Assembly (NCBI RefSeq): GCF_947090785.1
Contig: NZ_OX352320.1
Coordinates: forward strand, 1,488,001-1,552,000
Origin: Rheinheimera sp. MM224
Lineage (GTDB): Bacteria; Pseudomonadota; Gammaproteobacteria; Enterobacterales; Alteromonadaceae
Direction of reading: 5' to 3'
Length of the DNA: 64,000 nucleotides
The notes beneath the pieces are model-generated. The model searched no databases. It worked only from the letters and a program-made list of their open reading frames with translations, and was not told where the DNA came from. Both the position numbers and the translations under genes were made by a program. Below, one piece after another: positions 1,916 to 15,507 of this stretch (its first letter is position 1; every line of letters starts with the position of its first letter).

Positions 1916-2521
1916 AGTGTGGCAGATAGCCCTAATCTGTATTGTGATGAATCAGATAGTAGTTTTGCAGCTTCGCCTTTGCCGCTCTTGGTACCGGTCC
2001 GCAACTCCTGAATTTCGTCGTACACAACGGTTTTAAAGTAAGTGGGTTTGCATGACGACAGCAGCTGGCACGGTACCAGCTTCGAGCAGCAAGCCAGCTG
2101 TCGTGTAGGTTTTACCAAGGCCAACATCATCACCCAGCAAAAGAGCTAACCGCGCCAGCGTTAAATCTATAGCTTGGCCCTGATACTGCCGGATCTGTTG
2201 CCCTTCTTTTAAACCATGGCGATCCGCAGGCTTATAATCCGGCCGCAGTATCACTTCCATTCGAGCCTGAGTATTTTCGAAACTAATCCGGCCATTGTTC
2301 AGAGTTATGTTATCGCTGCATGACATCTGCATAGGGTAGCGCTGCTGGAACCACGACAGATCAGCGCAGTGTGCTGAGTCGTTAGGAAAGGTGAATTCGC
2401 CTGACTGCCACTTCGGGATCCGTGGGAATAAATGCTTTAGTCTTATTGCTACATGAGGCGGAATGGCTGTCATGATCCATTTGTTATCCACCAAGCTTAA
2501 CTTACCGTAAGTTTTTATCAT
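1916..2521 (-). pseudogene. SNF2/DEAD-type helicase, frame-broken and truncated
   Basis: The frame starts at the ATG at 2521, which overlaps the upstream nuclease gene stop by 4 bases (ATGA). It encodes an N-terminal region, a Q-motif-like segment (RQYQGQAIDL) and motif I (DDVGLGKTY). The frame stops at 2033. In another frame the DNA continues with motif II (VVYDEIQEL) and motif III (LGLSAT), ending at the junction at 1916. Only about 20 residues separate motif I from motif II, far fewer than in SNF2 proteins, so an internal segment that is not a multiple of three appears lost as well as the whole C-terminal half. An intact allele probably encoded a phage SNF2-like helicase. Confidence 0.8.
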
Positions 2522-2895
2522 AACCAGCCGGCTCCCATCGATGATACAAACGCTGGCTTACCTTCAATAGATGCAGGCAATTGCATAGCTGTTGCGGTAA
2601 GCAGTACTACAGCGTCCACAGATTCATGTTTTGCATAGCGCTCAAGTTGGCGGTATATCCGCATGCGCTGAGCTTTTGCCTTCAGCTCTAAAGCAACGTT
2701 GCAGCCGTCAATAGTTAAGTAAAAATCAACGATATCGCTTTCAGACAGGCGTTTTTCACGAACGAATGAATAGCCACTTTCAGTAAGTGCGTTTTCTAAC
2801 TGGCCCTGAGCTTTCTTCTCTACAGTTGCATCCAGCCTTTGGTTTGAAAGCCAGACCAGCAAAACAGAAACTGGGGTTGTTTTTTCCAAGCTCAT
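2518..2895 (-). CDS. Putative PD-(D/E)XK nuclease-like protein
   Basis: This encodes 125 residues from the ATG at 2895, which overlaps the stop of the preceding gene (ATGA). The central segment DIVDFYLTIDG...ALELKAK has the spacing of an Asp followed by E-x-K, as in PD-(D/E)XK nucleases or VRR-like phage nucleases. The gene sits directly upstream of the SNF2-type helicase with a 4-base overlap, a pairing seen in phages for DNA-processing functions. Catalysis is inferred only from this motif. A longer start at 2907 is possible but lacks the overlap logic. Confidence 0.55.
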   Translation of the reverse strand: MSLEKTTPVSVLLVWLSNQRLDATVEKKAQGQLENALTESGYSFVREKRLSESDIVDFYLTIDGCNVALELKAKAQRMRIYRQLERYAKHESVDAVVLLTATAMQLPASIEGKPAFVSSMGAGWL

Positions 2896-3095
2896 GCTGC
2901 ACCCCACGGGAAAAGCCGGAACACAAAAAAGGCAGATCCAGCACTGATGGCTATCACTCCGTAAAACGTCCAGCGTTCAATGCTGCTCAGAAAGCGCTTG
3001 CTTTGGCTGATGCGTGAATATTTGTGCATCCAGATAGCGATAACGCCGGTTACTAACATCAATATCAGGGCCAAAGCCCAAAGGAATATGTTCAT
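2892..3095 (-). CDS. Small two-helix membrane protein
   Basis: This encodes 67 residues with a hydrophobic helix at about residues 3-23 and a second at about 43-62, separated by a basic stretch (HKYSRISQSKR). The start at 3095 overlaps the stop of the DUF550 gene (ATGA). I do not recognise the family. Inner-membrane location is inferred from hydrophobicity. Confidence 0.6.
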   Translation of the reverse strand: MNIFLWALALILMLVTGVIAIWMHKYSRISQSKRFLSSIERWTFYGVIAISAGSAFFVFRLFPWGAA

Positions 3096-3889
3096 GCTGC
3101 ACCTGCCTCTTGATCACGTTTATGCTCAATAGCTTTGTCTTCACCCAGCAACCGCCAGTCTGGCCAGTCACGCTTTTCATTCTTTACGAGTTTGGCTTGT
3201 AGCGTATCAACAACCTGTTCAGCTATTTCTTCGTCTGATACTCCATCCCTAATCGCGTGGCGCCATGCACCATCTAAAGCCAGCATCGCAACATCGATCC
3301 ATTCGCTGAGGTCGTGTGGTTTTTCTGCCACTTCCTTCAGTTCCTTGGCTATGTGGTCAAGGATTCCACCTGTGCGAAGACCGGGGCCAAAAGCTTTTTG
3401 GCTGAAAGCTATTTGCCGGACTAAGTGAGCAATCAACGGGTAACCATCGTGGGATTCCAGTAACTGACTAATATCAGTCTTACCTGTCAATTCAGCAGCA
3501 TACTTATCTGCAAAGTCCTGCCACTCAGCAAATTCAGGGTCGACATTGACTGTTGCCCAGCTAATAAACTCACTAACAGCCTTTGCCGACACTTGCGCAT
3601 CGTGGGCGGCAAGGTCTTGTTCAGGAGAACTCCTTAAAACTGCCTCCATTTGGTAAACTGCCGCTGCTTGTCCCTCTGGAATGAGATCAATCACATTTAC
3701 AGCATTGGTCATTGCTCCACGCATTACTTCGGCTTGAGCAGCTAAAGCATCCACCAGAGATTTAAGTTCCCGCACTTCAGCCTCTGATTTAAGTGCTCTT
3801 ATGATTGCCAGCAGGTACATTTCACGTTGACTGCCGCTACCGAACTCTTGCTCAAGTTCTTTTTCGTAGATTTCAATGGATTGGCTCAT
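3092..3889 (-). CDS. DUF550 / dATP-dGTP pyrophosphohydrolase-like protein
   Basis: This 265-residue protein has a variable, partly coiled N-terminal half. Its C-terminal domain from about residue 165 carries the all-alpha MazG-like signature: FGPGLRTGGILDHIAKEL, then EVAE, then EWIDVAMLALDGAWR with the acidic ExxE...D pattern that binds metal, ending KNEKRDWPDWR. This matches phage DUF550 proteins, some of which hydrolyse dATP/dGTP to monophosphates. Start and stop overlap neighbours by 4 bases. It may adjust the nucleotide pool during infection. There is no PurZ-like gene in the window, so a 2-aminoadenine genome is not supported. Confidence 0.75.
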   Translation of the reverse strand: MSQSIEIYEKELEQEFGSGSQREMYLLAIIRALKSEAEVRELKSLVDALAAQAEVMRGAMTNAVNVIDLIPEGQAAAVYQMEAVLRSSPEQDLAAHDAQVSAKAVSEFISWATVNVDPEFAEWQDFADKYAAELTGKTDISQLLESHDGYPLIAHLVRQIAFSQKAFGPGLRTGGILDHIAKELKEVAEKPHDLSEWIDVAMLALDGAWRHAIRDGVSDEEIAEQVVDTLQAKLVKNEKRDWPDWRLLGEDKAIEHKRDQEAGAA

Positions 3890-4719
3890 GCTGCTTGCTC
3901 CTGAGGAAAAAACGATGCGATTAGTTCTTTTGCTTTGCCACGGTTTTGGCCGTTCTGGGAAATGTTCCGCTGAACGTCAAAGCATTGCAGTGTGGCGCCT
4001 GAATAAAGTGCCCGGGTTTCGGGCGTGTTGTGGTTGGATAAAACCACAGGGACCTTGCAGGCCATTGCCAGTTTTGCCAGCTGGTGTTGTTGAGCTAGCG
4101 AAAAACCACCGGCTGAATAGCTGGTAAAGTTTGCTGTGCTGGTAAGTGGCACGTAAGGCGGATCGCAGTACACAACGCAGTCACTGGGTAAGTTGGTGAA
4201 TGCATCTTCAAAACTGCGGCATAGCACCTCAGCTCTGTCTAAGCGGCTTGCGAACGCAGCCAATTCAGCTTTAGGGAAGTAGGGCTCTTTGTATTTACCA
4301 AAAGACACATTGAACTTGCCGCTCTGGTTATAGCGGCACAGGCCGTTAAAGCAGAACCGGTTCAGATAAACAAACAGCAAGGCCTTTTCGTACTGATCCG
4401 CAGTCGAATTGAACAGAGCTCTAAGCAACCTGAATTGCTCGTCTGTGTTGTTCGCCGGCCCAAAGAACCCTGCAGCATCTGCAATAAAAGCTGCTGGTGC
4501 CTGTTTCAGTTGTGCGAATGTATTAATCAGGTCCGGGTTAATGTCACTCAGTATGTAGTGGTCATAATCTGTGTTTAAGAAAATCGAACCTGCTCCAACG
4601 AACGGTTCTACCAGGCACTGATCTTTTGGAAGAATAGCGCTGATCCTTGCTGCCAATTTTGCTTTGCCGCCTGCCCATTTCAGGAATGGGCGATTGATTA
4701 CTGGTTGTGGTGCATTCAC
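3886..4719 (-). CDS. dam: DNA adenine methylase (Dam family)
   Basis: This encodes 277 residues with all expected N6-adenine methylase motifs: FLKWAGGK at residues 12-19, the SAM-binding PFVGAGSIF, and the catalytic DPPY followed by VPLTSTANFTSY. Length is typical of Dam/D12-class enzymes. The start is a GTG at 4719 that overlaps the preceding stop as GTGA; no in-frame ATG is close. As a phage orphan methylase it probably modifies GATC, protecting phage DNA or affecting regulation. No cognate nuclease gene is beside it. Confidence 0.9.
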   Translation of the reverse strand: MNAPQPVINRPFLKWAGGKAKLAARISAILPKDQCLVEPFVGAGSIFLNTDYDHYILSDINPDLINTFAQLKQAPAAFIADAAGFFGPANNTDEQFRLLRALFNSTADQYEKALLFVYLNRFCFNGLCRYNQSGKFNVSFGKYKEPYFPKAELAAFASRLDRAEVLCRSFEDAFTNLPSDCVVYCDPPYVPLTSTANFTSYSAGGFSLAQQHQLAKLAMACKVPVVLSNHNTPETRALYSGATLQCFDVQRNISQNGQNRGKAKELIASFFPQEQAA

Positions 4720-4928
4720 TTTGCCACCTCACTGACTTCAATAGGCCAGCCGACCCAACTTACACAATTACGTGATTCAACCAGGCGATCATTCGTTACT
4801 TTGCGGCTTACCATTTCTTCGGCGCAGTATTCCGCTCTGGTAGACACAGGGCGAGGGTAGACGGCAATCACTATTACCGCGGCGAATCCGGCAATGCCGA
4901 TGGCAACCAATAGAACTGGGCGTTTCAT
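4716..4928 (-). CDS. Small membrane-anchored protein
   Basis: This encodes 70 residues from the ATG at 4928, which overlaps the upstream stop (ATGA). A single hydrophobic segment lies at about residues 5-23, followed by a polar tail with three cysteines. A Cys-rich tail after one membrane helix suggests an extracytoplasmic C-terminus, but the family is not recognised. Confidence 0.6.
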   Translation of the reverse strand: MKRPVLLVAIGIAGFAAVIVIAVYPRPVSTRAEYCAEEMVSRKVTNDRLVESRNCVSWVGWPIEVSEVAK

Positions 4929-5380
4929 GCTAAAACCTCGCCATATTTGCTTAGTAAAAATTCCACACATTCGCTTTCAATGGTTAATCGCTCACTTTCG
5001 CTTAGTGGCACTGGTGGTGTGACTTCATAGACAAAAACTGGCACGCCTTTGCTAAGCCAAAACTGTCTGGCGGACTCGTAAGCTTCTCTGGCTGCAGGGC
5101 TATCTATATGAAAGCTACGGTCATGCTTTTGCAGTCGACCTAGCTCTATTAGCTTGTACACTCGCTTGCGGCGTTGGGTTTCACTTAACCTGGTTGTGAT
5201 ATTGGCAAGCTCACCACCCCACATATAGGACGAGTAAAAGAAATGGCTGAAGCGCTCTCCTTTATCAGCGTCATTTACCGCATATCTTCCACCAACAAAA
5301 TTAGTGATTACGCGCTTTGCCATCTGTTTTAACTGGTACAGCCATATCGATTGAATTAATTCGTCATCAGTCATTTTCAT
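4925..5380 (-). CDS. Hypothetical phage protein
   Basis: This encodes 151 residues, starting ATG at 5380 and overlapping the preceding gene (ATGA). The middle contains a basic segment (RLSETQRRKRVYKLIELGRLQKH) that reads like a winged-helix or DprA-type DNA-binding turn, but this is weak. No catalytic motif was found. It is translationally coupled on both sides in the DGR operon. Confidence 0.6.
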   Translation of the reverse strand: MKMTDDELIQSIWLYQLKQMAKRVITNFVGGRYAVNDADKGERFSHFFYSSYMWGGELANITTRLSETQRRKRVYKLIELGRLQKHDRSFHIDSPAAREAYESARQFWLSKGVPVFVYEVTPPVPLSESERLTIESECVEFLLSKYGEVLA

Positions 5381-6015
5381 GCTGCCACCTCACCAGCTTT
5401 CAGCGTGTCGTACATGTGGATCGCATGCACAATGGCGTAGCAGCACCAGATATAGTGAAAGCGAAACTTGTCTAAGCCACCGTCCCAAAAGTCGACAAGC
5501 TCCATACCGCCAGCATCTGAGCTGTCCCAATCGTTTATGCGATATGCAACGTCATATTCACTTCTTTCGTAAGAGTTAATGAAGTCTTTCACGGCATCCG
5601 TTGCTTCTTCAATTCTCTGAGCTTCGCTTTCGTCTTGCGGGTCTAAACTCTCTACAAACTCAGCAAGGTATTCTTTAAGCCTTGTTTCGTATGCGTCGAA
5701 ATCAGGCTCTGAGGTGATAGCGTTGGCGCCAGAATGACCAGCTCCTGCTTGAACCTTTTCTTCCCAGTAAGTCGGGTTTATTGAACCAGGCGTACCACGA
5801 AAAAATTCAAACATGTCGGTCAAACGGTAAAAAGTAAAACAACCCATATCGCCACTTATGCAAAGGTAACCAGGCCATGTTGTGATGTTGTAGTGCATGC
5901 TATTGGTGTTTGGCTTTGCTACCTTTAAATGACGATAAAGCCCATCATCTTTAAGAACCGTTAGTTGGTGCAGCTCTACATCTTTGGTAAAGCGCTCAAA
6001 AGTGCAACTGGTCAT
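5377..6015 (-). CDS. Hypothetical acidic phage protein
   Basis: This encodes 212 residues, rich in Asp and Glu, with no signal peptide. An AGAGG ribosome site lies upstream of the ATG at 6015. Recognisable phrases include WPGYLCISGDMGCFTFYR and a C-terminal HYIWCCYAIVHAIHMYD helix. It looks like a conserved tailed-phage early protein, but I cannot name it. It follows the DGR reverse transcriptase after a 60-base gap, the widest gap in this operon apart from the ends. Confidence 0.65.
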   Translation of the reverse strand: MTSCTFERFTKDVELHQLTVLKDDGLYRHLKVAKPNTNSMHYNITTWPGYLCISGDMGCFTFYRLTDMFEFFRGTPGSINPTYWEEKVQAGAGHSGANAITSEPDFDAYETRLKEYLAEFVESLDPQDESEAQRIEEATDAVKDFINSYERSEYDVAYRINDWDSSDAGGMELVDFWDGGLDKFRFHYIWCCYAIVHAIHMYDTLKAGEVAA

Positions 6016-6075
6016 AAAATTAACCTCTGAACATTGTTAGTCTTTATCTCAACCAGCTGACCTTCGAGCCGGTAA

Positions 6076-7320
6076 TCAAACTTGCGGTTTACTGTGACTG
6101 AGCTGATCCACGGATAACGGTCCAGAATCTTGCCCATCAGCCTGGTACTGTTCGATTGCTTGATATGGCTCTGTGTAGCTGGCAACGACAGAGCGAATAT
6201 GCCGGATATCTTCTGGCGTTGCGGTGATTACATCAGAGGTGACGAACTGATTTTCAAAGCTGGCCAGCGCCTCTTGGAAGTGAGTCACTACACGACGGCG
6301 TGTTTGTGTGTGGGTAGGTCTTAAGACATAACCCAGAAAGTCGATACCGTCTGAAAGTGGCCGCAGCTTAATATCCGGCTTCAGCTTGAGTTTTAACTTC
6401 TCAGCAATGAAGCGTTCTATTTCGGCCTGCCAGCGCTGCAGCTGGGCTTTGTCGTGATGGATAATCACAAAGTCATCCACGTAACGCAGATAGCGCTTGG
6501 CTTTTAAAGTGTGTTTAACGAATTGATCCAGCTCGTTCAAATAGACGTTTGCGAAGAACTGCGAACTCAGGTTGCCAATAGGTAGGCCGCAACCAGGTGC
6601 TGAGTTTTCAAGGCGCTTATGCATTGGCACTATGGCGCGCTCTGCATCTGAACACAGGTATCTAACACCTTGCTGTAGCGGGTGGTTTTTCAATAGGGCG
6701 TGAGTGGCATGCATCACCTGGTTGGATGCACCAGATTTCACCAGCTTCGTTTTTAACTGGGCCCACAGCGTAGGGCGATGGATTGAGTTAAAGAAGTTGT
6801 GAATATCCAGCTGCAGGTAAAATGCTTTAGGTACCTGCCGGATAAACTGCTGCAAACGCTCAACTGCTTTATGTGAGCCTTTACCTGTTTGGTTTGCATA
6901 GCTGTCGTAGATAAACGCCGGCTGCCAAAGTTTTTCCAGCTGTGGTACCAGCCAATGGTGCACAACACGGTCTGAAAAATCAGGCGCGTGTATTTCCCGG
7001 GCTTTTGGCCGGGCCGCAATAAAGCAGGTGCTTTGCTTTGGCTGCCATGAACAGTCGTTAATGCTGTGCTGCAATTCCAGTAAGCCACTTGACCAGCTGG
7101 TATCGAAATGGAGCTGGTTTGCGCTTGGTTTTTTGCCTTTACGGGCCTTTACCCAAGCGCTATAAATTTGCTGGAGAGAAACGACTTCATTACACTGACA
7201 CTCACCGCCGCGAACCGCACGGACGCACGCGTTGTTGTTGATGTCGTTGTTGTTGACATTGCCGTTGTTGAAATTGACCACCCAGCGGGCAGACTTGTTA
7301 CCGTTAGCTTGAAGCGTCAT
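6076..7320 (-). CDS. DGR reverse transcriptase
   Basis: This 414-residue group-II-intron-like reverse transcriptase is of the diversity-generating retroelement type. Motifs in order are KAREIHAPDFSDRVV at 106-120, the first catalytic Asp in LQLDIHNFFNSI at 169-180, the DGR-type GLPIGNLSSQFFANV at 245-259, the active site YVDD at 280-283 and FLGY at 328-331. The ATG at 7320 overlaps the Avd stop (ATGA). Starting there, residues 9-39 are encoded by the template repeat itself, so TR is translated as an Asn-rich N-terminal peptide. The enzyme should copy TR RNA into mutagenised cDNA for transfer to the two VRs. No maturase or endonuclease domain is present, as expected for a DGR. Confidence 0.95.
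   Translation of the reverse strand: MTLQANGNKSARWVVNFNNGNVNNNDINNNACVRAVRGGECQCNEVVSLQQIYSAWVKARKGKKPSANQLHFDTSWSSGLLELQHSINDCSWQPKQSTCFIAARPKAREIHAPDFSDRVVHHWLVPQLEKLWQPAFIYDSYANQTGKGSHKAVERLQQFIRQVPKAFYLQLDIHNFFNSIHRPTLWAQLKTKLVKSGASNQVMHATHALLKNHPLQQGVRYLCSDAERAIVPMHKRLENSAPGCGLPIGNLSSQFFANVYLNELDQFVKHTLKAKRYLRYVDDFVIIHHDKAQLQRWQAEIERFIAEKLKLKLKPDIKLRPLSDGIDFLGYVLRPTHTQTRRRVVTHFQEALASFENQFVTSDVITATPEDIRHIRSVVASYTEPYQAIEQYQADGQDSGPLSVDQLSHSKPQV
7204..7294 (-). repeat. DGR template repeat (TR)
   Basis: This 91-base segment matches VR1 (7829-7919) and VR2 (8241-8331). On the coding strand it contains 22 adenines, all inside a 45-base core that encodes NFNNGNVNNNDINNN with ten AAY codons. 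AAY codons can mutate at both adenines to 15 amino acids without making a stop. The 3' part on the coding strand (GCGTGCGTCCG...CGGCGGT) has no adenine, is identical in TR and both VRs, and fits the initiation-of-mutagenic-homing (IMH) region. TR lies inside the 5' coding part of the reverse transcriptase gene. Confidence 0.95.
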
Positions 7321-7790
7321 TGCACATCCCCTTGGGTAGCACAATGTTGCCGATGTTTTGGCCCCGATTGAGAGGCGTAACGGTCACTCAGTATCTGAGC
7401 ACGCTCCTGCTGTGACACAGCAGAATTCTGGCCCTTATCATGCAATGCGCGTTTCCACCCACCAGCACAGCGGCCTAAATCATCAGCTGCACGAATAATC
7501 ACTTCAAACTGATTGAAGCTTTTAAACGCATGCAGCTGCTTGGCCAGCTGTAAAACTACTTTCAGTTCGTCAATCACCCAAACTAGTTCGTTTACCCAGT
7601 GAATTTGACGGCTACGGTCACGCCAGGCGCGGTTGCATACCTGAACAACCAGCATCACTGCTGTTCTCAGGTTTGCTCCGATCGCATACTTGTTGTACTT
7701 GGCAAAACCCCTGACTGCGTTTTCAATAGCAACAGCCAGGCTTTCTGCCTTACGAGCAATTTCTGGTAATCCGTTTCTGTTAGCCGTCAT
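7317..7790 (-). CDS. avd: Avd-like DGR accessory protein
   Basis: This encodes 157 residues, mostly alpha-helical and basic, between the second target gene and TR/RT, the usual place for the accessory variability determinant. Segments such as IARKAESLAVAIENAVRGF, KYNKYAIGANLR and CAGGWKR fit the four-helix-bundle family that forms a pentameric barrel and binds the RT and RNA. I chose the ATG at 7790; a GTG at 7799 would add three residues. The stop overlaps the RT start. The tail (residues after about 120) is longer than the bundle needs and is of unknown role. Confidence 0.85.
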   Translation of the reverse strand: MTANRNGLPEIARKAESLAVAIENAVRGFAKYNKYAIGANLRTAVMLVVQVCNRAWRDRSRQIHWVNELVWVIDELKVVLQLAKQLHAFKSFNQFEVIIRAADDLGRCAGGWKRALHDKGQNSAVSQQERAQILSDRYASQSGPKHRQHCATQGDVQ

Positions 7791-7822
7791 AGCATTCACT
7801 CACAAATCAAAAAGACAAAAAG

Positions 7823-8194
7823 TTACTGACCGCCGCGAACCGCACGGACGCACGCGTAGTCGTAGACGTCGTAGCCGCCGACAAGGCCGCTGCTGAAACC
7901 GACCACCCAGCGGGCAGACTCTGGGCGTCTGGCCCATGGTGTACTTGTCCAGTAGCAGTCGCTTTCTGTATCTGGGAAAGCTTCTGTATCGATTGCTGGG
8001 TCGTATTTGGTGCGGTCAACAATGGTTTGCAGCTCGTCTACCGTAGGTAAACGCCAGCCTTCGCCTAAGGCCTCAACAGCCTTTACTGCATCTTCAAAAG
8101 TGACATCACTCGCCACTGTGTTTTGGCTCCACACCAGACCTGTTAAGGTGTCTGCTACTGTTTTGCCATCTTCGCTTTTAGTAAAACGTGACAT
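7823..8194 (-). CDS. DGR target protein 2 (DUF1566, C-type-lectin-like)
   Basis: This encodes 123 residues, with an AGAAGGA ribosome site before the ATG at 8194. It consists of little more than a DUF1566/Lcl_C-like domain: GLVWSQ near residue 20, then EALGEGWRLPTVDELQTIVD, then CYWTSTPWARRPESARWVVGF, ending in ACVRAVRGGQ. The last 31 residues are VR1, with variable residues GFSSGLVGGYDVYDY. There is no signal peptide, membrane helix or tail-attachment domain. It is paralogous to target 1 and should be a ligand-binding protein with a diversified surface. Confidence 0.92.
   Translation of the reverse strand: MSRFTKSEDGKTVADTLTGLVWSQNTVASDVTFEDAVKAVEALGEGWRLPTVDELQTIVDRTKYDPAIDTEAFPDTESDCYWTSTPWARRPESARWVVGFSSGLVGGYDVYDYACVRAVRGGQ
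7829..7919 (-). repeat. DGR variable repeat 1 (VR1)
   Basis: This has the same 91-base length as TR. It differs at 15 positions, and all 15 fall on TR adenines (coding strand); none of the 69 other positions differs. The adenine-free 3' segment is identical to TR and to VR2. After the last GGT codon, TR has G and the VRs have C (GGTGAGT against GGTCAGT). VR1 forms the 3' end of target gene 2. Confidence 0.95.
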
Positions 8195-8234
8195 TGGTTT
8201 TTCCTTCTGGGTTGGTTAAATCAAAAAACAGAAA

Positions 8235-8672
8235 CTACTGACCGCCGCGAACCGCACGGACGCACGCGTAGTAGTTGATGCCGTTGCCGTAGACAACGCC
8301 GTCGCCGAAACCGACCACCCAGCGGGCAGACTCTGGACGCCATGCGCATGGAGTAGCAGTCCAGTACCAGGTGCTTTTAGTGTCTGGATACTTGTTGGTA
8401 TCAATGCATGGGTCGTGGCGCTCTAAGTCGACCAGCGTTAGCAGTTCTTCGCGGGTTGGCAGGCGCCAGCCTTCGCCTAAATCGGCCACTGCCTTTTCGG
8501 CTTTTTCGAAGTTCACCTTCTCGCCGTCCAACAGTGTTTTGCTCCACTCAAGGCCTGTGGCTGGCTCAAGTACTGAAGCAGTGGCAGCGGGAGCGTCAGC
8601 AGCTGGAGAGCCGATAGCAGTTAAGTGGATGTTTAACGTTGCACCCTTTTCACATGTGATATGTAAATTCAT
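8235..8672 (-). CDS. DGR target protein 1 (DUF1566, C-type-lectin-like)
   Basis: This encodes 145 residues. The ATG at 8672 overlaps the stop of the upstream frame (ATGA). After a short N-terminal extension (about residues 1-37) comes a DUF1566-like domain: GLEWSK, ADLGEGWRLPTREELLTLVD, TWYWTATPCAWRPESARWVV, ending ACVRAVRGGQ. Residues 115-145 are VR2, with variable residues GFGDGVVYGNGINYY. Compared with target 2 it has a longer N-terminus but the same core, so a duplication is likely. No secretion signal is visible. The ligand is unknown. Confidence 0.92.
   Translation of the reverse strand: MNLHITCEKGATLNIHLTAIGSPAADAPAATASVLEPATGLEWSKTLLDGEKVNFEKAEKAVADLGEGWRLPTREELLTLVDLERHDPCIDTNKYPDTKSTWYWTATPCAWRPESARWVVGFGDGVVYGNGINYYACVRAVRGGQ
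8241..8331 (-). repeat. DGR variable repeat 2 (VR2)
   Basis: This aligns without gaps to TR. It has 13 substitutions, all at TR adenines, at a set of sites different from VR1. The flanks downstream of VR1 and VR2 also share a T-rich stretch (TTTTTGATTT) that TR lacks, which may help mark the recipient site. Confidence 0.95.
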
Positions 8673-9051
8673 AGTGTTGAACCTTTCAGTTGATAATCAT
8701 TGCCCGGCACAAACTGCACATAACGCTGCACGGTTTTGCTGCGGCCTCTTTTGTCTTTCGATACGGCTGGTGCTTTGATAAACACAGCGCACCGGATGAA
8801 GCCCTGTTTCTCTGCCATGGCTATGTACTGTTCGCACGTAGTCGGCATGCTGTATTCGGGGCTGACGCGAATGGGGGGGTAGACTCAAGCAATTTTGTTA
8901 AAAGCTCTGCTTCCACCACTTCAACAGCCGGAACCTTGGTTTTACCCTTTGTATCCTTCGCCTTTTTCTGCGCTTTACCGACAACAGCCAGAGCCTGCTT
9001 ATGGGCTTTCTCTTTCACTTTTTTAGGGTCGATACCGAATACAGCGAACAT
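8669..9051 (-). CDS. Hypothetical protein, frame interrupted at a G7/C7 run
   Basis: From the ATG at 9051 a Lys/Ala-rich frame runs 76 residues to 8821. In the next frame an open stretch continues (PPIRVSPEYSMPTT, then MAEKQGFIRCAVFIKAP) to a TGA at 8669-8671 that overlaps the target 1 ATG. One extra C in the C7 run (plus strand G7 at 8873-8879) would fuse both into one protein of about 127 residues. A homopolymer sequencing error is the simplest reading. If the break is real, the second part could start at 8848 or 8818. The function is unknown; its position suggests a DGR-operon partner. Confidence 0.6.
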
Positions 9052-9053
9052 GG

Positions 9054-9392
9054 TTAAAACTCCGTCGTAGTGGTGTTTTGTTGTGGAAGCCCGATACGTC
9101 GAACGCCATTTGCCACCAACCAGTTGATTGCTTTTGGTGAAGGCTTAAAGCATCCCTCGTGTACCAACAGCCAGCCGTTATCAGCCAGTTCGTTAATTTG
9201 GTAAACGGCCTGAGCATGACTGTGGAAAATCCCCAGGCGTTTAATGGCGCCGATACCAATCACGGTTTCAGTGTTAATGCAGTTCTGGTCTATCAGGTAA
9301 ATGACAGTGCGTTGTTGCAGCGTCAGCTCTGAATCTGTCGACACAGCAAAAACCGAAGTAGGGCATATCTGTGCTGTCTGAACTGCGCTCAT
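9054..9392 (-). CDS. Hypothetical protein, possible winged-helix fold
   Basis: This encodes 112 residues, starting at 9392 with an ATGA overlap. The pattern LTLQQRTVIYLIDQN...INELADNGWLLVHEGCFKPSPKAINWL looks like helix-turn-wing DNA-binding architecture. No close family is recognised. It could regulate the operon, but this is inference. Confidence 0.55.
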   Translation of the reverse strand: MSAVQTAQICPTSVFAVSTDSELTLQQRTVIYLIDQNCINTETVIGIGAIKRLGIFHSHAQAVYQINELADNGWLLVHEGCFKPSPKAINWLVANGVRRIGLPQQNTTTTEF

Positions 9393-9589
9393 GCTGCTTC
9401 ACCGTTAAATTGCTGCTTCGATACTTCAATGGCATGCATTAAGTCGCCAACAGTCAGGTCGTAAACCGCTACTCCGTTCGCCTCAATTTTCTCTGCTACT
9501 AAATCTGTGAAGCCTGCGCTGCAGTGAGGAACCGCGCCCATTTCAGCGCATACATGCAGCAGTGCCTCCATAACCATTGAATTGCTCAT
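9389..9589 (-). CDS. Small hypothetical protein
   Basis: This encodes 66 residues. I chose the ATG at 9589 because it overlaps the stop of the previous gene (ATGA); the longer frame from 9649 would overlap that gene heavily. It is a mixed-charge, soluble sequence without motifs. Confidence 0.55.
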   Translation of the reverse strand: MSNSMVMEALLHVCAEMGAVPHCSAGFTDLVAEKIEANGVAVYDLTVGDLMHAIEVSKQQFNGEAA

Positions 9590-9912
9590 GCACCACCTCT
9601 TAAGAACTGGTGAACATTGGCCAGAGTGCTGGTGCGCAAAACAGTGCAATGCGTCATATCGTCGTTGATGTGCAAAGCAAAGCGGCCGTCTGTTCCAATC
9701 GTTCCCATGTGATCCATGTAGTTGGCCTGAAACTCTGGGCTTGGTAGTGCGCGTTTGATTTGGTTGAGCAGGCGCTGCTGCGTGGCCTTAACCTTCGGGT
9801 CTTGGCTCACATCAACATAGGTACTCATAAAGCAACGGAAGCGCAGGCTTAACAAATGCAGCTCTTCCATAGCGTGTTTGCGGCGGTGGGTGGTTTTTGT
9901 TAAGACTGACAT
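9586..9912 (-). CDS. Hypothetical protein, first gene of the minus-strand operon
   Basis: This encodes 108 residues from the ATG at 9912, preceded by AAGGAGACAGCT, a strong ribosome site. The open frame extends upstream to 9981, but that part lies in the promoter region and is unlikely to be translated. It is rich in Arg and His near the start (TTHRRKHAMEEL), with no recognised domain. It leads the 8-kb operon that contains the DGR. Confidence 0.6.
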   Translation of the reverse strand: MSVLTKTTHRRKHAMEELHLLSLRFRCFMSTYVDVSQDPKVKATQQRLLNQIKRALPSPEFQANYMDHMGTIGTDGRFALHINDDMTHCTVLRTSTLANVHQFLRGGA

Positions 9913-10222
9913 AGCTGTCTCCTTATCGATAAAATATCTAATACGATACCAATATAGATAAAAATATCGAAAAAGCAACAATAAATATCGAAAAAGAAAT
10001 TTAGGGGTTTACATGGCCAATTATTTAGCTATATTGGGTAGAAGTTGTTAAGTGAAGGTTGTTATAGGATTTTGTTTCACGAGGATTTGGAAAAATACCG
10101 GGTTTATTCTCTTATTAGTTGTGCCAAGTGATAAAAATATAAAGTTTTTTGACTGGTATTAATTTTACATTAGTGGAATTATTGCTCTAGTTCGTAACAC
10201 TTGGTTCTAAATGGAGATAATC
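9913..10222. promoter_or_regulatory. Divergent promoter/operator region
   Basis: This AT-rich region separates the minus-strand DGR operon from the plus-strand gene at 10223. On the minus strand TTGCTT and TATATT, 16 bases apart, form a possible sigma-70 promoter. Motif AATATCGAAAAAG occurs twice (9963-9975 and 9984-9996). ATACGATA at 9941-9948 is the half-site of the palindrome at 12854-12871. These look like repressor operators that would keep the DGR operon off in the lysogen. This is inferred from repeats only. Confidence 0.5.
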
Positions 10223-10507
10223 ATGAACGGTATTGGCCTTAACGATTCGTTAGCGACAGCTGCTTATAGCTCACAACTAAGCTCTGTAAACAACGGTGTA
10301 GAAGTGAAATCAGCAGCTGAAGTGACAACTCAGACATCTAGCGTAGACAAAGTGACTCTGAGCCAAGAGGCTTTAAACTTATCTGCTACTTCAAATGAAC
10401 CTACAGAGCCAGATGATGAGCCGGTAGCTGAAACTAATAACACAGGCATTGAGCCGCCAAAGGTGGCGCCTTTTAACACAGGTATAGAGCCACCAAAACC
10501 TAAATAG
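10223..10507 (+). CDS. Hypothetical small protein with NTGIEPPK repeats
   Basis: This encodes 94 residues from the ATG at 10223, preceded by GGAG; an upstream ATG at 10211 would contain that ribosome site. The middle has VDKVTLSQEALNLSA, which resembles the DSVSLTSQAQQ segment of the flagellar FlgM encoded at 50848-51189. The C-terminus is acidic and Pro-rich with NTGIEPPK twice. It may be a lysogenic-conversion gene. Any link to motility is speculative. Confidence 0.5.
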   Translation: MNGIGLNDSLATAAYSSQLSSVNNGVEVKSAAEVTTQTSSVDKVTLSQEALNLSATSNEPTEPDDEPVAETNNTGIEPPKVAPFNTGIEPPKPK

Positions 10508-10524
10508 TCTATAGAGGGGTCAAT

Positions 10525-11022
10525 ATGTGGGGTGAAATTGAAAGTTTGCTGATGGCCATAAATAGCGTAACTTGGCTGTCTTATTTAGCGGCTTCCTTTG
10601 CGGCAGTATTTTTGGTTAGAGATCTGTCATTTAAAGCAACTCTAATTGCTTGGTCAGTCGCTGACTTAGTGAACTTAGTTTTCACCCCAATTCTTTTTAG
10701 CCTAAGCGAGGTTGATAGAGAGTTAGCCAGGCTAGTATGGTATCCAGCATTTTCAATGCTCAGCTTGTTAACTATTTTCTTCATCTATCAGGTCCATATA
10801 AAGGCATCAATCCAAGTATCTAGGTTTTCTAAACCGATAGTTTTATGGCTTTTGATGATGGTAGCGCTTAATGTTGTAAGGTTTTTCGATAGAGTAGTTT
10901 TTGAAACTAATTTCACCAGTGAGCTTTTTAAGTTTGGGCTATTAGCTGTTAAGGTTTGGGCTTCTGTGGCTGTATGGATTTATCTCTATCAGATGTGTAG
11001 TAGGTCAAGGAGGGCTGCATAA
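10525..11022 (+). CDS. Polytopic membrane protein
   Basis: This encodes 165 residues with about four to five hydrophobic helices (near 15-30, 37-60, 70-92, 105-120 and 133-155) and an Arg-rich end. The DNA is AT-rich compared with the structural genes. It follows the preceding gene by 17 bases and precedes the next by one base. A role in superinfection exclusion is possible, but no family was recognised. Confidence 0.6.
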   Translation: MWGEIESLLMAINSVTWLSYLAASFAAVFLVRDLSFKATLIAWSVADLVNLVFTPILFSLSEVDRELARLVWYPAFSMLSLLTIFFIYQVHIKASIQVSRFSKPIVLWLLMMVALNVVRFFDRVVFETNFTSELFKFGLLAVKVWASVAVWIYLYQMCSRSRRAA

Positions 11023-11023
11023 A

Positions 11024-11368
11024 ATGGATATTTTAATAAGTGCATTTTTAATAGTGTTAGTACTTTTCTTTTCTGCTTATTTTGGTTTAGCTCTAATAAA
11101 ATCAGAGAAAAACCTTAACGAAAGCCCTGAGCGGATCGCTGAAAAAAATATGGGCAATCGAGCTCATTACATGATTATCAAGTACTGCGAATTAATTACT
11201 TCACCTGACAGCATATCTAAGGCGATAGCATTAAAGAATTTTCAGGAAAACGCTCTGAAATATAGTGAAGACTATGAGCATTCAATTATGGAAGTAATAT
11301 CTAGATCAGAGGAAGGCGCAAATAAAATACACTTGTTACGACCAGAAGCTGAGACCAATAAAGGTTAA
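11024..11368 (+). CDS. Membrane-anchored hypothetical protein
   Basis: This encodes 114 residues with one N-terminal membrane helix (about 4-26) followed by a soluble, helical, charged domain. It starts two bases after the previous stop, suggesting coupling. It is convergent with the repressor-like gene and overlaps its end by 4 bases. The family is unknown. Confidence 0.55.
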   Translation: MDILISAFLIVLVLFFSAYFGLALIKSEKNLNESPERIAEKNMGNRAHYMIIKYCELITSPDSISKAIALKNFQENALKYSEDYEHSIMEVISRSEEGANKIHLLRPEAETNKG

Positions 11369-11868
11369 GCAGATTTATCTGTACTCAGCTTTAAATTCGT
11401 TTTAACCACTTCGAAACCATAGTTTTTAAAAGTCAGAACAGCAAAATCAGTTATCGTTTCTAAAGACATATCAGATTTCAGGCTGCACCAACTCAATTCG
11501 TGCAGGTCTATAAGATACTTTGCCATAACGTTCTTAAGGTCTGCTGCGTCAATTTGCGCCTTAGGTTCTGACCCTGACTTAGCCAACAAATCAGGGTTTA
11601 GTAGGTCAGCAGCCGTTACCGACTTATATTCTTCGTATAAGTTTATGCCTTTCACCATTTCATCGAGTTTATCCATTCCCATGACTTGTCCGTTGTCGTG
11701 CCTGGTGAAAATGCTTTTATCGATTTTAATTCCATTTTCTTTGCACATCTCAGAAAAGTTGGACTTATTCTTTCCAACGCTTTCAAGTATTTGCAATACG
11801 TTAGTTATTACAACGTCCTGTACTCGCTTGTGCATAGTATTACCATCAGTGTTATTTACTGAATCCAA
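11365..11868 (-). CDS. Putative prophage repressor (HTH-like)
   Basis: This encodes 167 residues. The N-terminal part (VITNVLQILESVGKNKSNF, SEMCKENGIKIDKSIFTR, then MDKLDEMVKGINLY) follows the five-helix pattern of Cro/CI-type HTH domains. No peptidase (S24) motif is present in the C-terminal part, so it is not a classical self-cleaving CI. The start at 11868 or the ATG at 11835 are both possible. Its position between the two operator-like regions fits a lysogeny regulator. Confidence 0.55.
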   Translation of the reverse strand: MDSVNNTDGNTMHKRVQDVVITNVLQILESVGKNKSNFSEMCKENGIKIDKSIFTRHDNGQVMGMDKLDEMVKGINLYEEYKSVTAADLLNPDLLAKSGSEPKAQIDAADLKNVMAKYLIDLHELSWCSLKSDMSLETITDFAVLTFKNYGFEVVKTNLKLSTDKSA

Positions 11869-12040
11869 ATATATATCTAAAAGGAAACAAGATAAACCTA
11901 AAAAGGCGAAAAAGTCATTTAAAATAGATGTTTTAAGAGGGTTTTAGGATATTAAGCTGATTCTGAGTGGTAATATTCTTTTAAAGGATAATTTGCGAAT
12001 TAAGTAACCCTAATTCGCAACGGTGATTTAGTTATTTCAA

Positions 12041-12673
12041 TTAATTAATCCCACAATCAGATAGTGCTTTTTGGAGGCTGCTGTTTAACTGAACTTCCCC
12101 AACTGTAGATTTAAGTCCTGGTAGGCCACCTGTTTGGTAAATCATATTTTTACCGCTAAGTAGTTCTTTCAATATCTGTTCAGCTTTACTATCAGTAGCG
12201 GCCGTAAATGTAGAAAGCATCTGAGCTGTATATTGCTGTTGGTTTTTAATCGTGCTTTCAACCATATCCTTAGTTTTCTGATCCATGTTTGCCGTTAAAG
12301 TGTTTACGTAATCCGGTGACATTGCACTTCCAATTGATTTGAGATCGGCGGGGGTCTCGCTCACTGTAATGTCCCATGCTTTATTCTGATCTATACGTAT
12401 TTTCACATCACCAACAGGTATGGGAAACTTTCCACCACTTCGCAATCCGACCCTAAGCTGACCATCTTTTTTCTGAATGTATGGGTAGTAGTGATTTTGC
12501 CTTGTATATAGATAATCCCCGCCCCAGTATTCTGCTACTGAAACAAAGCACTCTACTTCATCGGTAAACCTATCTGCGGTTACTGAAGCTCTCCATGGCC
12601 CTGAATTATCAGTGCTTGAACACCCGGATATGAGCAGACCTAAAGCTATATAGATTAGTTTATTTACCTGCAT
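12041..12673 (-). CDS. Putative lipoprotein
   Basis: This encodes 210 residues with a lipoprotein signal peptide: a short basic start, a hydrophobic core and lipobox LISGC. The mature part has no recognised enzymatic motif. As a lone gene beside the repressor in the lysogeny region it looks like a lysogenic-conversion gene whose product would sit in the envelope. The family is unknown. Confidence 0.65.
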   Translation of the reverse strand: MQVNKLIYIALGLLISGCSSTDNSGPWRASVTADRFTDEVECFVSVAEYWGGDYLYTRQNHYYPYIQKKDGQLRVGLRSGGKFPIPVGDVKIRIDQNKAWDITVSETPADLKSIGSAMSPDYVNTLTANMDQKTKDMVESTIKNQQQYTAQMLSTFTAATDSKAEQILKELLSGKNMIYQTGGLPGLKSTVGEVQLNSSLQKALSDCGIN

Positions 12674-12853
12674 TTTCAGCCCCTTTAACTGAACTTGTTA
12701 GTTGTTATAAATCCTAAATTACCTCAATAGGCGACAGCATTACAACTAGTCTGACTTCATAGCCTGTGTTGCGACCTAACCAGCCGAATGAAAAGTCTTA
12801 ACCCTGCCTGCGTAATTATCTAAAAAGAGAATAAATGGATCTTAAAGTTGCTA

Positions 12854-12871
12854 ATACGATATTTATCGTAT
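12854..12871. promoter_or_regulatory. Operator-like palindrome
   Basis: ATACGATA and its exact complement TATCGTAT are separated by two T. It lies 35 bases before the ATG of the small HTH-like gene at 12907. The same half-site occurs in the other regulatory region at 9941-9948, suggesting one repressor controls both leftward and rightward transcription. Confidence 0.6.
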
Positions 12872-12906
12872 ATTTTTAGTCTGATTGTTTTCAGAGAGAT
12901 ATTTAT

Positions 12907-13110
12907 ATGACGGTTTCAGAATTAAGAGGTGTTTTGGCTTCCATGCTGCAAATCCGTGGAAAGCTCAGGAAAACGTGCGAGGAATTGAACGTTGATTATT
13001 TGAAGGTTTGGAAGTTCGCTAAGAACAAAACCAAAAAAATTGATCACGACTTGGCGCAGCGATTAATTAGCCACCTAAATCCAGAGATTGATACGAGAGG
13101 TGCTGCATGA
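12907..13110 (+). CDS. Small Cro/CII-like DNA-binding protein
   Basis: This encodes 67 residues. The segment KTCEELNVDYLKVWKFAKNKTKKIDHDLAQRLI resembles a short helix-turn-helix of phage Cro/transcriptional regulators. It is the first gene of the rightward early operon, directly after the palindromic operator, and its stop overlaps the next start (ATGA). Confidence 0.55.
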   Translation: MTVSELRGVLASMLQIRGKLRKTCEELNVDYLKVWKFAKNKTKKIDHDLAQRLISHLNPEIDTRGAA

Positions 13111-13301
13111 ATTCAACATCATCAGCAGCTGACTCACAATTAACGGACCTATCCGTACCTCTGCAAAGCTTCACGTTGGACGTTATTCAACAGTGCACTT
13201 GCCTTTGGTGCGGTAAGCCTGTACCGGAATCTACTTTGTTTTGCAGCAGCATCTGCAGGAACGAAAACACGCAGCAAGTTCGACTGAACGGTGGGTTTTG
13301 A
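13107..13301 (+). CDS. Small zinc-finger-like protein
   Basis: This encodes 64 residues with the pattern CLWCGKPVPESTLFCSSIC, two CxxC/CxxxC pairs that should bind one zinc ion. It overlaps the preceding gene by 4 bases. The function is unknown; such small proteins are common in phage early regions. Confidence 0.6.
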   Translation: MNSTSSAADSQLTDLSVPLQSFTLDVIQQCTCLWCGKPVPESTLFCSSICRNENTQQVRLNGGF

Positions 13302-13346
13302 CCAGCATCGGTAAGCGCTTTTGTAAGAGTGTTTACCGATGCTGGT
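13301..13346. terminator. Perfect 14-bp inverted repeat
   Basis: ACCAGCATCGGTAA at 13301-13314 and its exact complement at 13333-13346 flank an 18-base loop. It begins on the last base of the preceding stop codon. There is no T run after it, so it may be a processing or attenuation hairpin and not a simple terminator. Confidence 0.5.
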
Positions 13347-13364
13347 GCTGGGGGCTGATAGCAG

Positions 13365-13481
13365 ATGCCTCAGCCAGTCAAACCTTCGGTGCTGCATCAC
13401 AAGTCCATTAACCCTGATGGGTTTAACGGATTGTTAAACGGCTCGGCAGCTTGGGAAGACAAGCACGTTATTCGCCGCTAA
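13365..13481 (+). CDS. Possible 38-residue protein
   Basis: An ATG at 13365 opens a 38-codon frame (MPQPVKPSVLHHKSINPDG...) ending at TAA 13479-13481. The sequence is compositionally protein-like, but the ribosome site is weak. From here to 13598 I see no other gene. Confidence 0.3.
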   Translation: MPQPVKPSVLHHKSINPDGFNGLLNGSAAWEDKHVIRR

Positions 13482-13598
13482 TCCGGCTAAGCGCACGGGG
13501 TTCATTAGATGGCCGACTTAACCGACTGGTAATGATGTAACCAGTCACTGGGAGGCACCCAGGGTGGCGAATAACAAACACTACAACAGGAACTGATC

Positions 13599-13889
13599 AT
13601 GAGTACCTCAACACCGATATTAATGTCTGCTGATAATCCAACTGGCTGGAAGCTCGAAGAGTTGCTGGCTCAGGTTCGCAAGGAACTGCTGGTTAAAACA
13701 GAAAAGATCACTGGTGACGAAAGCACTGAGAGCATGAAAGTACAGTGCAACAACTTATCAATTCTGCGTCAGCTATTTAACGCTGAAGCTTTGCAGCGAG
13801 AAAGTATTGCTGTTCTAGAGGCCAAGTCCCCTGATCAAGGCCCAACAGGGCAGGCGCGTATTGGAGCAACAGCTCATGCAAACACGTAG
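13599..13889 (+). CDS. Hypothetical protein
   Basis: This encodes 96 residues. ACAGGAACTGATC precedes the ATG. It has a charged helical centre (KLEELLAQVRKELLVKTEK) and a flexible Gly/Thr tail. No motif is recognised. It overlaps the next frame. Confidence 0.5.
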   Translation: MSTSTPILMSADNPTGWKLEELLAQVRKELLVKTEKITGDESTESMKVQCNNLSILRQLFNAEALQRESIAVLEAKSPDQGPTGQARIGATAHANT

Positions 13890-14103
13890 AGCTATGCAGC
13901 GCCTATTCAGCCGCAAGTGCACCATGTTCTCTACCTGGTGTTCGTATTTGGTGTTTCTGTTCGGCTTTATGCCCATGTTCCCACCACAGTCGACACTGCT
14001 AGCTTGGCTGTTCATTGCCGCTACAGTTGTGCTTTTAGTCGTTACGGCTGCGTGGGCATACCTGCTGGAGCAAAACCTTCAATTACTCGAGGGTGAGAAG
14101 TGA
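13861..14103 (+). CDS. Small membrane protein
   Basis: This encodes about 75-80 residues, with a TTG start at 13861 or an ATG at 13876. Two hydrophobic segments (WCSYLVFLFGFMPMF and LLAWLFIAATVVLLVVTAAW) span the membrane. It overlaps the convergent gene on the other strand by about 25 bases. Confidence 0.45.
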   Translation: MEQQLMQTRRAMQRLFSRKCTMFSTWCSYLVFLFGFMPMFPPQSTLLAWLFIAATVVLLVVTAAWAYLLEQNLQLLEGEK

Positions 14104-14390
14104 TGCTCAGCCACATCAGCCAGAACCTGCCTAGCATCGTCGGGCATGGTCCACAATTCAAACTCTTCAGACATAGCAAAGAGAATATCGGCCTGCGTCA
14201 TGGCTTGAATTTGGCCGCGGGTCCAGTGGTGCTTTTGCATCAGGAAGTAATGCACGGCATCAAGGCCTGTGTGTTTTTCATAGCCTTGCTGTGCAGCCAG
14301 GTGGTCGCCAAAAATCGCCAGCGTATAGCCTATACGGGCTTCTTCCAGCACTTTGCGGTAAAGGTCAAGGTAATAGGGTTTGCGGTCCAT
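14079..14390 (-). CDS. Hypothetical protein on the opposite strand
   Basis: This encodes 103 residues from the ATG at 14390, preceded by GGAGGC. Its composition is protein-like (YYLDLYRKVLEEARIGYTLA, KHHWTRGQIQAMTQADILF) and no competing plus-strand gene covers the region. It is antisense to the early transcript, which is unusual. No family is recognised. Confidence 0.55.
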   Translation of the reverse strand: MDRKPYYLDLYRKVLEEARIGYTLAIFGDHLAAQQGYEKHTGLDAVHYFLMQKHHWTRGQIQAMTQADILFAMSEEFELWTMPDDARQVLADVAEHHFSPSSN

Positions 14391-14461
14391 AAGCGCCTCC
14401 AATCGTGGAATAGCTTTCTGTTTCTGAATAAAGAACATAGTTCACTTATGGGAGGTCTGCA

Positions 14462-15196
14462 ATGAGTGAAAAAGTGAAGACAAATCCGATGTTTGATTCT
14501 GTTAACGCAAGCATTCGTAATTCCTGGGCGAGAACTATCCCACAAAACGCACACGGCATATCACGTACTATTGCTGATTTACCCGAGCGTATTAATGCGG
14601 CTATTCAAGTCGCTTTGGGTGGCCCAATGCTAACAGGCCACAGACCAAATCATTCCGTGATGTGGGATCTGCCTGCATATACTGGTTTTGAAGTGGCGCT
14701 GGAGTCTGCATTTCTGCTTAGCGATGTCCTTGGCGAAGTTTTAGGTTTGTTAAGTGAAACGCAGATTGATGAAATTAACGTGAAGTCTTTTACCAGGCGT
14801 TCAGAATATTTAGCGAATAAAAGGAAACTGATTAGCGCAGACCCGGAAGATTTTTATGATGAAAAAACTTTCTGCAAATTGGATATTCATACTGGCACAA
14901 CCTTAAAGCGGTCGGTAGGGCAGTGCGTTCAATTTATGTTTGATCCTAGAACAGGAAAGCTGTTGCTGGTGTCGATACCTATTCTGTGTACTCAGGTTGC
15001 CTTTATTCAGGCCACTGAGGCTCAGATTGAAATATTTCAAAGAGATAGGGATTCTTTAAGGCTTAACTGCAGCTACAAAGATGCCGTATTTGCAATGCTG
15101 CTTACTTCGCTGGCTGATTTAAAAGTACTGCTGAAATCAGACGTAGTAGACGCCTATTTTGAAGCTTGCAGTGGAGGAGCTGATGAACAGGTTTAG
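14462..15196 (+). CDS. Hypothetical phage early protein
   Basis: This encodes 244 residues, with GGGAGG upstream of the ATG at 14462. It is soluble, with long hydrophobic and helical stretches (GFEVALESAFLLSDVLGEVLGLL). No known motif was found. It lies just before the replication module. Confidence 0.6.
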   Translation: MSEKVKTNPMFDSVNASIRNSWARTIPQNAHGISRTIADLPERINAAIQVALGGPMLTGHRPNHSVMWDLPAYTGFEVALESAFLLSDVLGEVLGLLSETQIDEINVKSFTRRSEYLANKRKLISADPEDFYDEKTFCKLDIHTGTTLKRSVGQCVQFMFDPRTGKLLLVSIPILCTQVAFIQATEAQIEIFQRDRDSLRLNCSYKDAVFAMLLTSLADLKVLLKSDVVDAYFEACSGGADEQV

Positions 15197-15429
15197 TCTA
15201 TTAGCCCATGCTGTTGTGCCAGCAGTATTGCTTCTTCTGCGTCCATTCCATCTGGACCCACGTTTAGCTGTGCCTGGTTGTTCTTATGCTGCACTGATAT
15301 TACGTGATACCAGTTACCGTCAGAAGCCTCAATGGTATGTCCTGCATCAAGCTGCCTGGTTGAGCTATGTGTTTTTGGCTGCGGGTAGGCTGTTTTTATT
15401 ACCTGCTTTAGCGTGTATGTGTAAACCAT
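15193..15429 (-). CDS. Small hypothetical protein on the opposite strand
   Basis: This encodes 78 residues. The text (TIEASDGNWYHVISVQHKNNQAQLNVGPDG, split here by my reading) has the balance of a real beta-rich protein ending in an EEAILLAQQHG helix. The plus-strand frame over the same bases is Leu/His-rich and looks like a shadow. The ribosome site is weak. Confidence 0.45.
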   Translation of the reverse strand: MVYTYTLKQVIKTAYPQPKTHSSTRQLDAGHTIEASDGNWYHVISVQHKNNQAQLNVGPDGMDAEEAILLAQQHGLID

Positions 15430-15483
15430 GGTTAATCCCTAATCCACATTCGATAGTTCTACTCATTCACTTCCACAAAAACA

Positions 15484-15507
15484 AAAGCCCTGCGCTAACA
15501 GGGCTTT
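15484..15507. terminator. Hairpin terminator
   Basis: AAAGCCCTG and CAGGGCTTT form a 9-bp stem with a 6-base loop, between the opposite-strand gene and the replication initiator. It works structurally in both directions. Confidence 0.55.

Follow-up and report, generated by a model that had tools for sequence, protein, structure and literature searches.

We analysed a stretch of 64,000 nucleotides (the window) from Rheinheimera sp. MM224, taken from a genome of 4.64 Mb and corresponding to C1:1488001-1552000, where "C1" marks coordinates of the source contig NZ_OX352320.1. Within it we followed up a diversity-generating retroelement (DGR) that a preliminary description of this DNA had placed in a prophage. 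All the parts which that description listed were recovered on one strand, namely a reverse transcriptase (RT) gene whose window copy encodes the motifs YVDD and GLPIGNLSSQ, an Avd-like gene, a template repeat (TR) and two variable repeats (VRs) on DUF1566-type genes. Read on the minus strand from 8672 to 6076, they are arranged as target gene 1, target gene 2, avd, TR and RT. The TR lies in frame inside the RT gene and directly 3' of a stretch with a conserved predicted RNA fold. The features of the locus, in window coordinates, are:

8235..8672, minus strand: target gene 1, 145 aa, Lcl_C (PF07603, formerly DUF1566), Pfam E-value 1.5e-21
8237..8332, minus strand: VR1, 96 nt, 3' end of target gene 1
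7823..8194, minus strand: target gene 2, 123 aa, Lcl_C (PF07603), Pfam E-value 1.5e-27
7825..7920, minus strand: VR2, 96 nt, 3' end of target gene 2
7317..7799, minus strand: avd, 160 aa, stop codon overlapping the RT start (ATGA)
7297..7428, minus strand: structured RNA element directly 5' of the TR, matched by covariance model R1
7405..7425, minus strand: helix P0 (7417-7425 with 7405-7413), from the single-sequence fold
7300..7384, minus strand: helix P1 (7378-7384 with 7300-7306), closing just before the TR
7361..7376, minus strand: helix P2 (7372-7376 with 7361-7365), in the alignment, the covariance model and the fold
7318..7346, minus strand: helix P3 (7339-7346 with 7318-7325), pairing the RT AUG (7318-7320) in the predicted fold
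7200..7295, minus strand: TR, 96 nt, in frame inside the RT gene
6076..7320 (from its ATG), minus strand: DGR reverse transcriptase, RVT_1 E-value 2.5e-18, with a TR-encoded N-terminus

To place the RT, a FastTree phylogeny of 167 RTs was built with five group II intron RTs and five retron St85-type RTs as outgroups and rooted on the retrons, leaving out RTs truncated at a contig end and those with an atypical length. In this tree, the RTs from 156 fetched loci (numbered with L below) and Brt of phage BPP-1 shared an ancestor excluding the outgroups (support 0.979), within which the clade of the window had a support of 1.0; the early assignment to DGRs therefore agrees with the phylogeny, in which the RT groups with BPP-1 Brt and outside the group II intron and retron RTs. 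The RT profile search gave 8ub7 as best match (4e-49), followed by a group II RT (1e-18), and 8ub7, whose entry title names a DGR ribonucleoprotein, was also the top match of the predicted structure of a relative, P0001. The motif IGNLSSQ is one that we take to be of DGR type. Assignment as a defence-type or retron RT was tried and rejected, as NCBIfam matches were all below cut-off and the PADLOC matches (80 and 79 families) spanned many RT types. The avd gene was assigned via PHROG 3206 ("Avd protein of DGR", E-value 1.8e-14), with further matches to NCBIfam NF033474 (7e-9) and Pfam bAvd (1e-7) that both fall under the curated cut-off; a tblastn search for Avd in phage records gave no match. 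Fold prediction among the targets covered target 2 only, and this protein is predicted to adopt a C-type lectin fold (model pLDDT 85.7), the best PDB match being the C-terminal domain of Legionella Lcl (8q4e, E-value 1.2e-5), after which C-type lectins rank at E-values > 0.001. With an RT of the DGR clade, an adenine-directed TR/VR pair, a VR at the 3' end of a target gene, avd and a difference of the initiation of mutagenic homing type (IMH/IMH*), the retroelement is, on sequence grounds, a DGR. Homologues of its RT were found in no other genome of the same genus (own genome alone, 1 of 22, E-value 1e-30) or family (1 of 295, E-value 1e-60).

The TR holds 24 adenines in 96 nt, distributed over codon positions as 11, 13 and 0. 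Compared with it, VR1 had 13 of 14 mismatches at adenines (hypergeometric P 7.6e-9) and VR2 15 of 16 (P 1.4e-10), the sole other mismatch being identical in both. We extended the comparison to three close relatives (L011, L012 and L013; RT core 91-93% identical, locus DNA ~89-92%). Among the 10 VRs of the four genomes, 126 of 140 mismatches fell on TR adenines and 10 were one fixed G/C difference at the end (IMH/IMH*; index 92), present in all 10 VRs and none of the four TRs. Substitutions at non-adenine positions in relatives, which the preliminary description had named as evidence against its reading, were rare without being absent, amounting to 4 of 140 besides the fixed end difference and located in VR1 of L013 and VR3 of L011. 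At sites other than adenines, the three relatives' TRs differ from that of the window at 2, 5 and 2 sites, and the VRs of the same genome carried their own TR's letters in 25 of 25 cells, scored by eye. Eleven of these cells, from L012 and L013, concern sites at which none of the other three TRs has the same letter, and the shared markers extend to index 79 of 96. Because VRs share the non-adenine differences of their own TR, they have, as far as these alignments tell, been overwritten since the relatives diverged. L011 (3176-3268) and L012 (3175-3270) have a third VR ~2.4 kb further upstream, without counterpart in the window phage.

In the window, the RT ATG (7320) overlaps the avd stop codon as ATGA, and the TR starts 25 nt later, in the phase of the VRs. 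To assess how general this arrangement is, we used a first set of 37 loci of the window's clade, counting the window once (its identical second copy was not recounted) and excluding two clade loci without a detected TR/VR pair (L022 and L048). The TR lay within the open RT frame in all 37 loci and was in phase in 35. An ATGA upstream of the TR in the RT frame was found in 36 loci, and in all 36 the avd stop, located separately by tblastn, was the TGA of that ATGA; since the ATG had been chosen within the RT frame, the frame alone is no evidence in this set, and the separately located avd stop is. The distance from this ATG to the TR anchor varied from 54 to 120 nt and was a multiple of three in 33 of 35 loci (L016 has no anchor). 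In the two remaining loci (L015 and L100, no sister pair in the RT tree), the TR is out of phase while the ATG and the RT core are still in frame, which we read as compensating indels before the RT core. Of the alternative frames, +1 is closed by the ATGA and +2 has a stop in 34 of 36 loci. We then analysed a further 68 loci (the second set), taking the avd stop first and dropping nine repeat contigs; 67 loci were analysable (L258 is without the RT N-terminus), with avd in 64, ATGA in 62 and an in-frame ATGA in 60. A TR was detected in 63 loci, 62 of which have it in phase; L210 is a third out-of-phase case. A separate branch of seven loci (L040, L042, L043, L047, L056, L061 and L063; support 1.0) also showed the ATGA and an in-phase TR. 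Shine-Dalgarno sites at the RT start, scored with a simple motif, were inconsistent. The overlap of avd stop and RT start, together with the in-phase TR, indicates that the RT would be read through its own template.

Several observations weigh against such a reading. The ATG of L023 does not share the RT frame, four of the 64 avd-bearing loci of the second set lack an in-frame ATGA (L191, L209, L211 and L248), and the two sets may overlap, some contigs of the second possibly representing phages already present in the first. Over sequence pairs, synonymous and nonsynonymous single-base differences numbered 1452:1726 in the N-terminal extension vs 47616:13990 in the RT core, so the extension shows little purifying selection at the protein level and its translation, if real, may be useless. 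In P0001, N-terminal residues 1-43 have a model confidence below 50 and are predicted to be disordered. A function of the TR-encoded tail as protein was accordingly considered and dropped as unsupported by these counts and this prediction; the RT frame stays open though the encoded peptide is barely conserved. Translation of the RT could also start inside or after the TR, the open frame being a by-product of a stop-poor repeat: in 33 of 36 loci, the TR or the sequence immediately following it has in-frame GTG or TTG codons that could act as internal starts, and an AAC-rich TR would be poor in stops in any frame. No ATG occurs between the TR start and ten codons past the start of the core in 35 of 36 loci. 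We hold an internal start to be very improbable, given the avd-ATGA coupling in two locus sets, the frame kept through varied lengths and the compensated indels in two separate branches.

To look for RNA structure around the template, we aligned ~130 nt before the TR from 32 clade loci (alignment A6, in which L023 and four window-type loci are not included). A short stretch before the ATG had given weak covariation (4 pairs, 1 compensated), and it was the longer stretch that revealed the fold. A6 yielded 17 pairs in three helices, 12 of them with compensatory changes, with 95.9% of cells paired vs 82.3% in shuffles and 66 double-change cells vs 14.1 in shuffles (reached in 0 of 500); slid controls gave at most 50.7% paired and 14 double-change cells. 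The covariance model built from A6 (R1) matched the window at 7297-7428 with 72.2 bits (E-value 2.4e-16) and no non-standard pair marked. This element shares 112 nt with the 3' end of avd and 24 nt with the start of the RT gene. R1 also matched 70 of 73 clade sources that had not contributed to A6, although some of their contigs may come from the same phages; it missed L048, L203 and L240, and L206 was a partial match at a contig end. In the 63 loci with both a model match and a TR, the RNA ended a median of 2 nt from the TR start (range -9 to 42). In a second alignment of 48 stretches, picked using R1 and folded without it, P1 and P3 reappeared together with a hairpin P0 and only two pairs of P2, with 181 double-change cells vs 51.8 in shuffles. 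A conserved RNA fold is, by this covariation, located directly 5' of the TR. Rfam 15 gave no match in the window at 6000-9500 (E-value 1) and, tRNAs aside, none in L094 (0.1) or in seven further clade loci (gathering threshold). Searched against 42 loci of other clades, R1 gave four matches up to an E-value of 1, of which only those in L117 and L118 were at the TR. The weak match in L118 (1693-1818) ends exactly at a TR that lies ~1 kb upstream of the RT, outside the RT gene.

Three results speak less well for the fold. The core of P0 (4 pairs) covaries in the second alignment and is paired in 72.9% of cells; the single-sequence folding energy of the window RNA plus TR is unremarkable (z -0.22); and in a class-wide draw of 369 genomes with strict filters, the RNA was found in the window's own genome only. 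An alternative would be that the RNA only controls translation of the RT and plays no part in recognising the template. For this speak its position across the RT start, the pairing of the AUG in the fold predicted for the window and, in other clade members, a G-rich 3' arm of P2 immediately ahead of the ATG. Across the clade, however, the RNA keeps to the TR irrespective of the start codon. The ATG lies inside P3 and 25 nt upstream of the TR in the window group, but ahead of P3 and ~50-80 nt upstream of the TR in most other loci; despite this shift in the boundary of the open reading frame, the RNA ends next to the TR in both groups. The weak match in L118 still ends at the TR, at its distance from the RT, and in a related clade described below (the RT-15 clade) the RNA occupies this position even though the RT frame does not always stand open where avd stops. 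We therefore regard pure translational control as unlikely.

The element could instead be an ordinary DGR of the BPP-1 type, in which the 5' structure is secondary and the RNA that counts is encoded 3' of the TR, inside the RT reading frame. The 3' spacer of BPP-1 matches Rfam Phage_DGR in our search and, according to PMC12875486, recruits bRT-Avd. In the ~160-190 nt 3' of the TR, RNAalifold found no consensus pair in the same 32 loci as A6 and synonymous variation showed no dip, which led us to reject a BPP-1-like RNA element hidden in the RT gene; the Rfam search of 6000-9500 was likewise negative, and in the window only 14 nt separate the TR end from the conserved RT core (codon 46). No structured TR-RT spacer of the BPP-1 type was thus seen in the window clade, and no BPP-1-like hairpin was seen in three stretches, two of them after VRs. 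On this evidence a hidden 3' RNA has a small chance of being the key one. In the seven-locus branch, L040 has a sub-threshold match to Rfam RT-14 (6083-6202, E-value 0.043) directly 3' of the TR, inside the RT frame. Either side of the template may carry an RNA, branch by branch.

The prophage setting proposed for the element was confirmed by an 18-bp att repeat at a tRNA-Arg, with attL at C1:1463909-1463926 and attR at window 48392-48409. Within this prophage, a direct tandem duplication of ~23.9 kb (C1:1466063-1489916 and C1:1490038-1513896; 99.966% identity) places the TR/VR set twice in the genome, 23,976 bp apart. Further features of the window are:

48392..48409, no strand: attR, 18-bp att repeat, 3' end of tRNA-Arg
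46968..48242, minus strand: tyrosine integrase, NCBIfam NF007246 E-value 2e-134, near attR
2038..25896, no strand: second copy of the duplication (copy B), the first copy (copy A) being mostly upstream of the window
1917..2038, no strand: duplication junction, at which a head protease gene (1440-2036) and a helicase gene are cut short

The copies differ in eight alignment columns (one substitution, the others indels), and copy B is without 151 bp near its start, at the junction; the duplication may be real or partly made by the assembly. The TR, both VRs and the RNA element are identical between the copies. The RT of the window copy (414 aa) is out of frame near its C-terminus relative to the upstream copy and the relatives, so that the DGR first described as complete is not complete in the window: the frame shift removes the conserved C-terminus, which the RT of copy A (435 aa) retains. 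As for the suggestion that the system is or was recently active, the 25 of 25 cells support activity that is recent in evolutionary terms, and the sign of mutagenic retrohoming appears to be of that kind; against present activity, the tandem copies show no VR or TR difference and the RT of copy B is frame-shifted. These two observations would also fit an element that is dead in this host. We think this improbable, because the upstream copy keeps a full-length RT frame, the TR, VRs and RNA are the same in both copies, and a duplication that may be very recent, or owed in part to the assembly, is a poor basis for judgement. Elsewhere in the genome, outside the window, a third RT (C1:3684034-3684687) has a similarity to retron St85-type RTs that does not reach the family cut-off, and one of its matches is interrupted by a stop. 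A small open reading frame upstream of the targets (window 8821-9051) has a homopolymer of different length in the two tandem copies, which changes the frame of this open reading frame.

Taking the coupling, the in-phase TR and the 5' fold together, we consider it likely that one transcript is both mRNA and template and that the DGR RNA is organised from its 5' side. We infer a single transcript on which avd and RT would be translationally coupled via the ATGA. The RT message would run through the TR, giving an RT with a TR-encoded, probably unstructured N-terminal tail. The ~130-nt fold (P0-P3) 5' of the TR would mark the transcript as template RNA and would most likely recruit RT and Avd, the role held by the 3' spacer in BPP-1; the priming site and the functions given here to the proteins are likewise putative. 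Since the folded state pairs the RT start region, folding as template and translation as mRNA probably exclude each other, which would amount to a switch between the two uses. Error-prone cDNA copied from the TR, with errors at adenines, would then replace the VRs of both targets up to the one-base IMH/IMH* difference.

To our knowledge, most of what is understood about DGR RNA comes from a single phage, in which the 3' region recruits the enzymes and primes cDNA. Our comparison suggests that the branch of the window organises its template RNA differently from this textbook example. An in-frame, avd-coupled TR with a covarying 5' RNA was not described in the literature searched (titles and starts of abstracts, and passages of PMC6642488 and PMC8144416), which is no proof of absence. 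If an entire branch has its structured RNA 5' of the template, the DGR priming rule would not be universal, a listed RNA family (RT-15) would gain a likely function, and the layouts of DGRs and retrons could be compared. Where the template doubles as coding sequence, a clear and testable prediction follows, that ribosomes compete with reverse transcription, as does a warning for annotation: the N-terminus of such RTs would be template, not enzyme.

BPP-1 is known for adenine-directed TR-to-VR transfer, a target with a C-type lectin fold and a hairpin after the VR. With this phage (NC_005357) the window shares the order target-avd-TR-RT on one strand and the relationship of the RTs. In BPP-1, however, the TR lies outside brt and is followed by a 144-nt 3' spacer matching Rfam Phage_DGR, whereas in the window the TR is inside the RT gene without a 3' spacer and the covarying RNA sits 5' of the TR. 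As PMC12875486 describes it, the BPP-1 spacer both recruits bRT-Avd and provides the priming of cDNA, and reverse transcription is stopped by a motif at the 3' end of avd.

A closer likeness is found in clade II DGRs (Pseudomonas, Burkholderiales and others; L121 was dropped from the list), whose RTs are related to that of the window (37-41% core identity) and which carry the Rfam RNA RT-15 (RF03018). This RNA ended within 6 nt of the TR start in all 16 clade II loci tested (L127, L122, L141, L132, L036, L037, L039, L041, L045, L046, L123, L125, L126, L128, L130 and L150), which suggests that RT-15 is a DGR RNA. Clade II differs from the window clade in that avd ends 145-177 nt before the TR in most loci, the RNA is 192 nt long, and the RT frame usually does not share the phase of the TR, nor is it consistently open where avd stops. 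Thirteen of these 16 loci were searched with R1, which had no match at the TR in any of them, and the window's RNA was not recognised by the RT-15 covariance model.

Overlap of TR and RT is itself a known class, structural group 3 of DiGReF (Schillinger 2012, PMC3521204). The text on this group, as far as it was accessible, gives the position only, infers separate transcription of RT and TR RNA, and is silent on frame conservation, avd coupling and RNA structure, unlike the arrangement described here.

The window further shares with retrons (msr-msd-RT) the order of structured RNA, template and RT. The likeness is one of topology only: its RT groups with DGR RTs, apart from the five retron St85-type RTs. 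This order is the general one of retrons, of which a TR/VR relation is not known to be part. Tentatively, and with less conviction than for the dual transcript, DGR RNAs might come in two topologies, one with its scaffold 3' of the template as in BPP-1 and the other in a proteobacterial branch (this clade and the RT-15 clade) where a 5' scaffold would prime mutagenic cDNA in a retron-like order, the unfolded RNA serving in the window clade as the mRNA of the RT.

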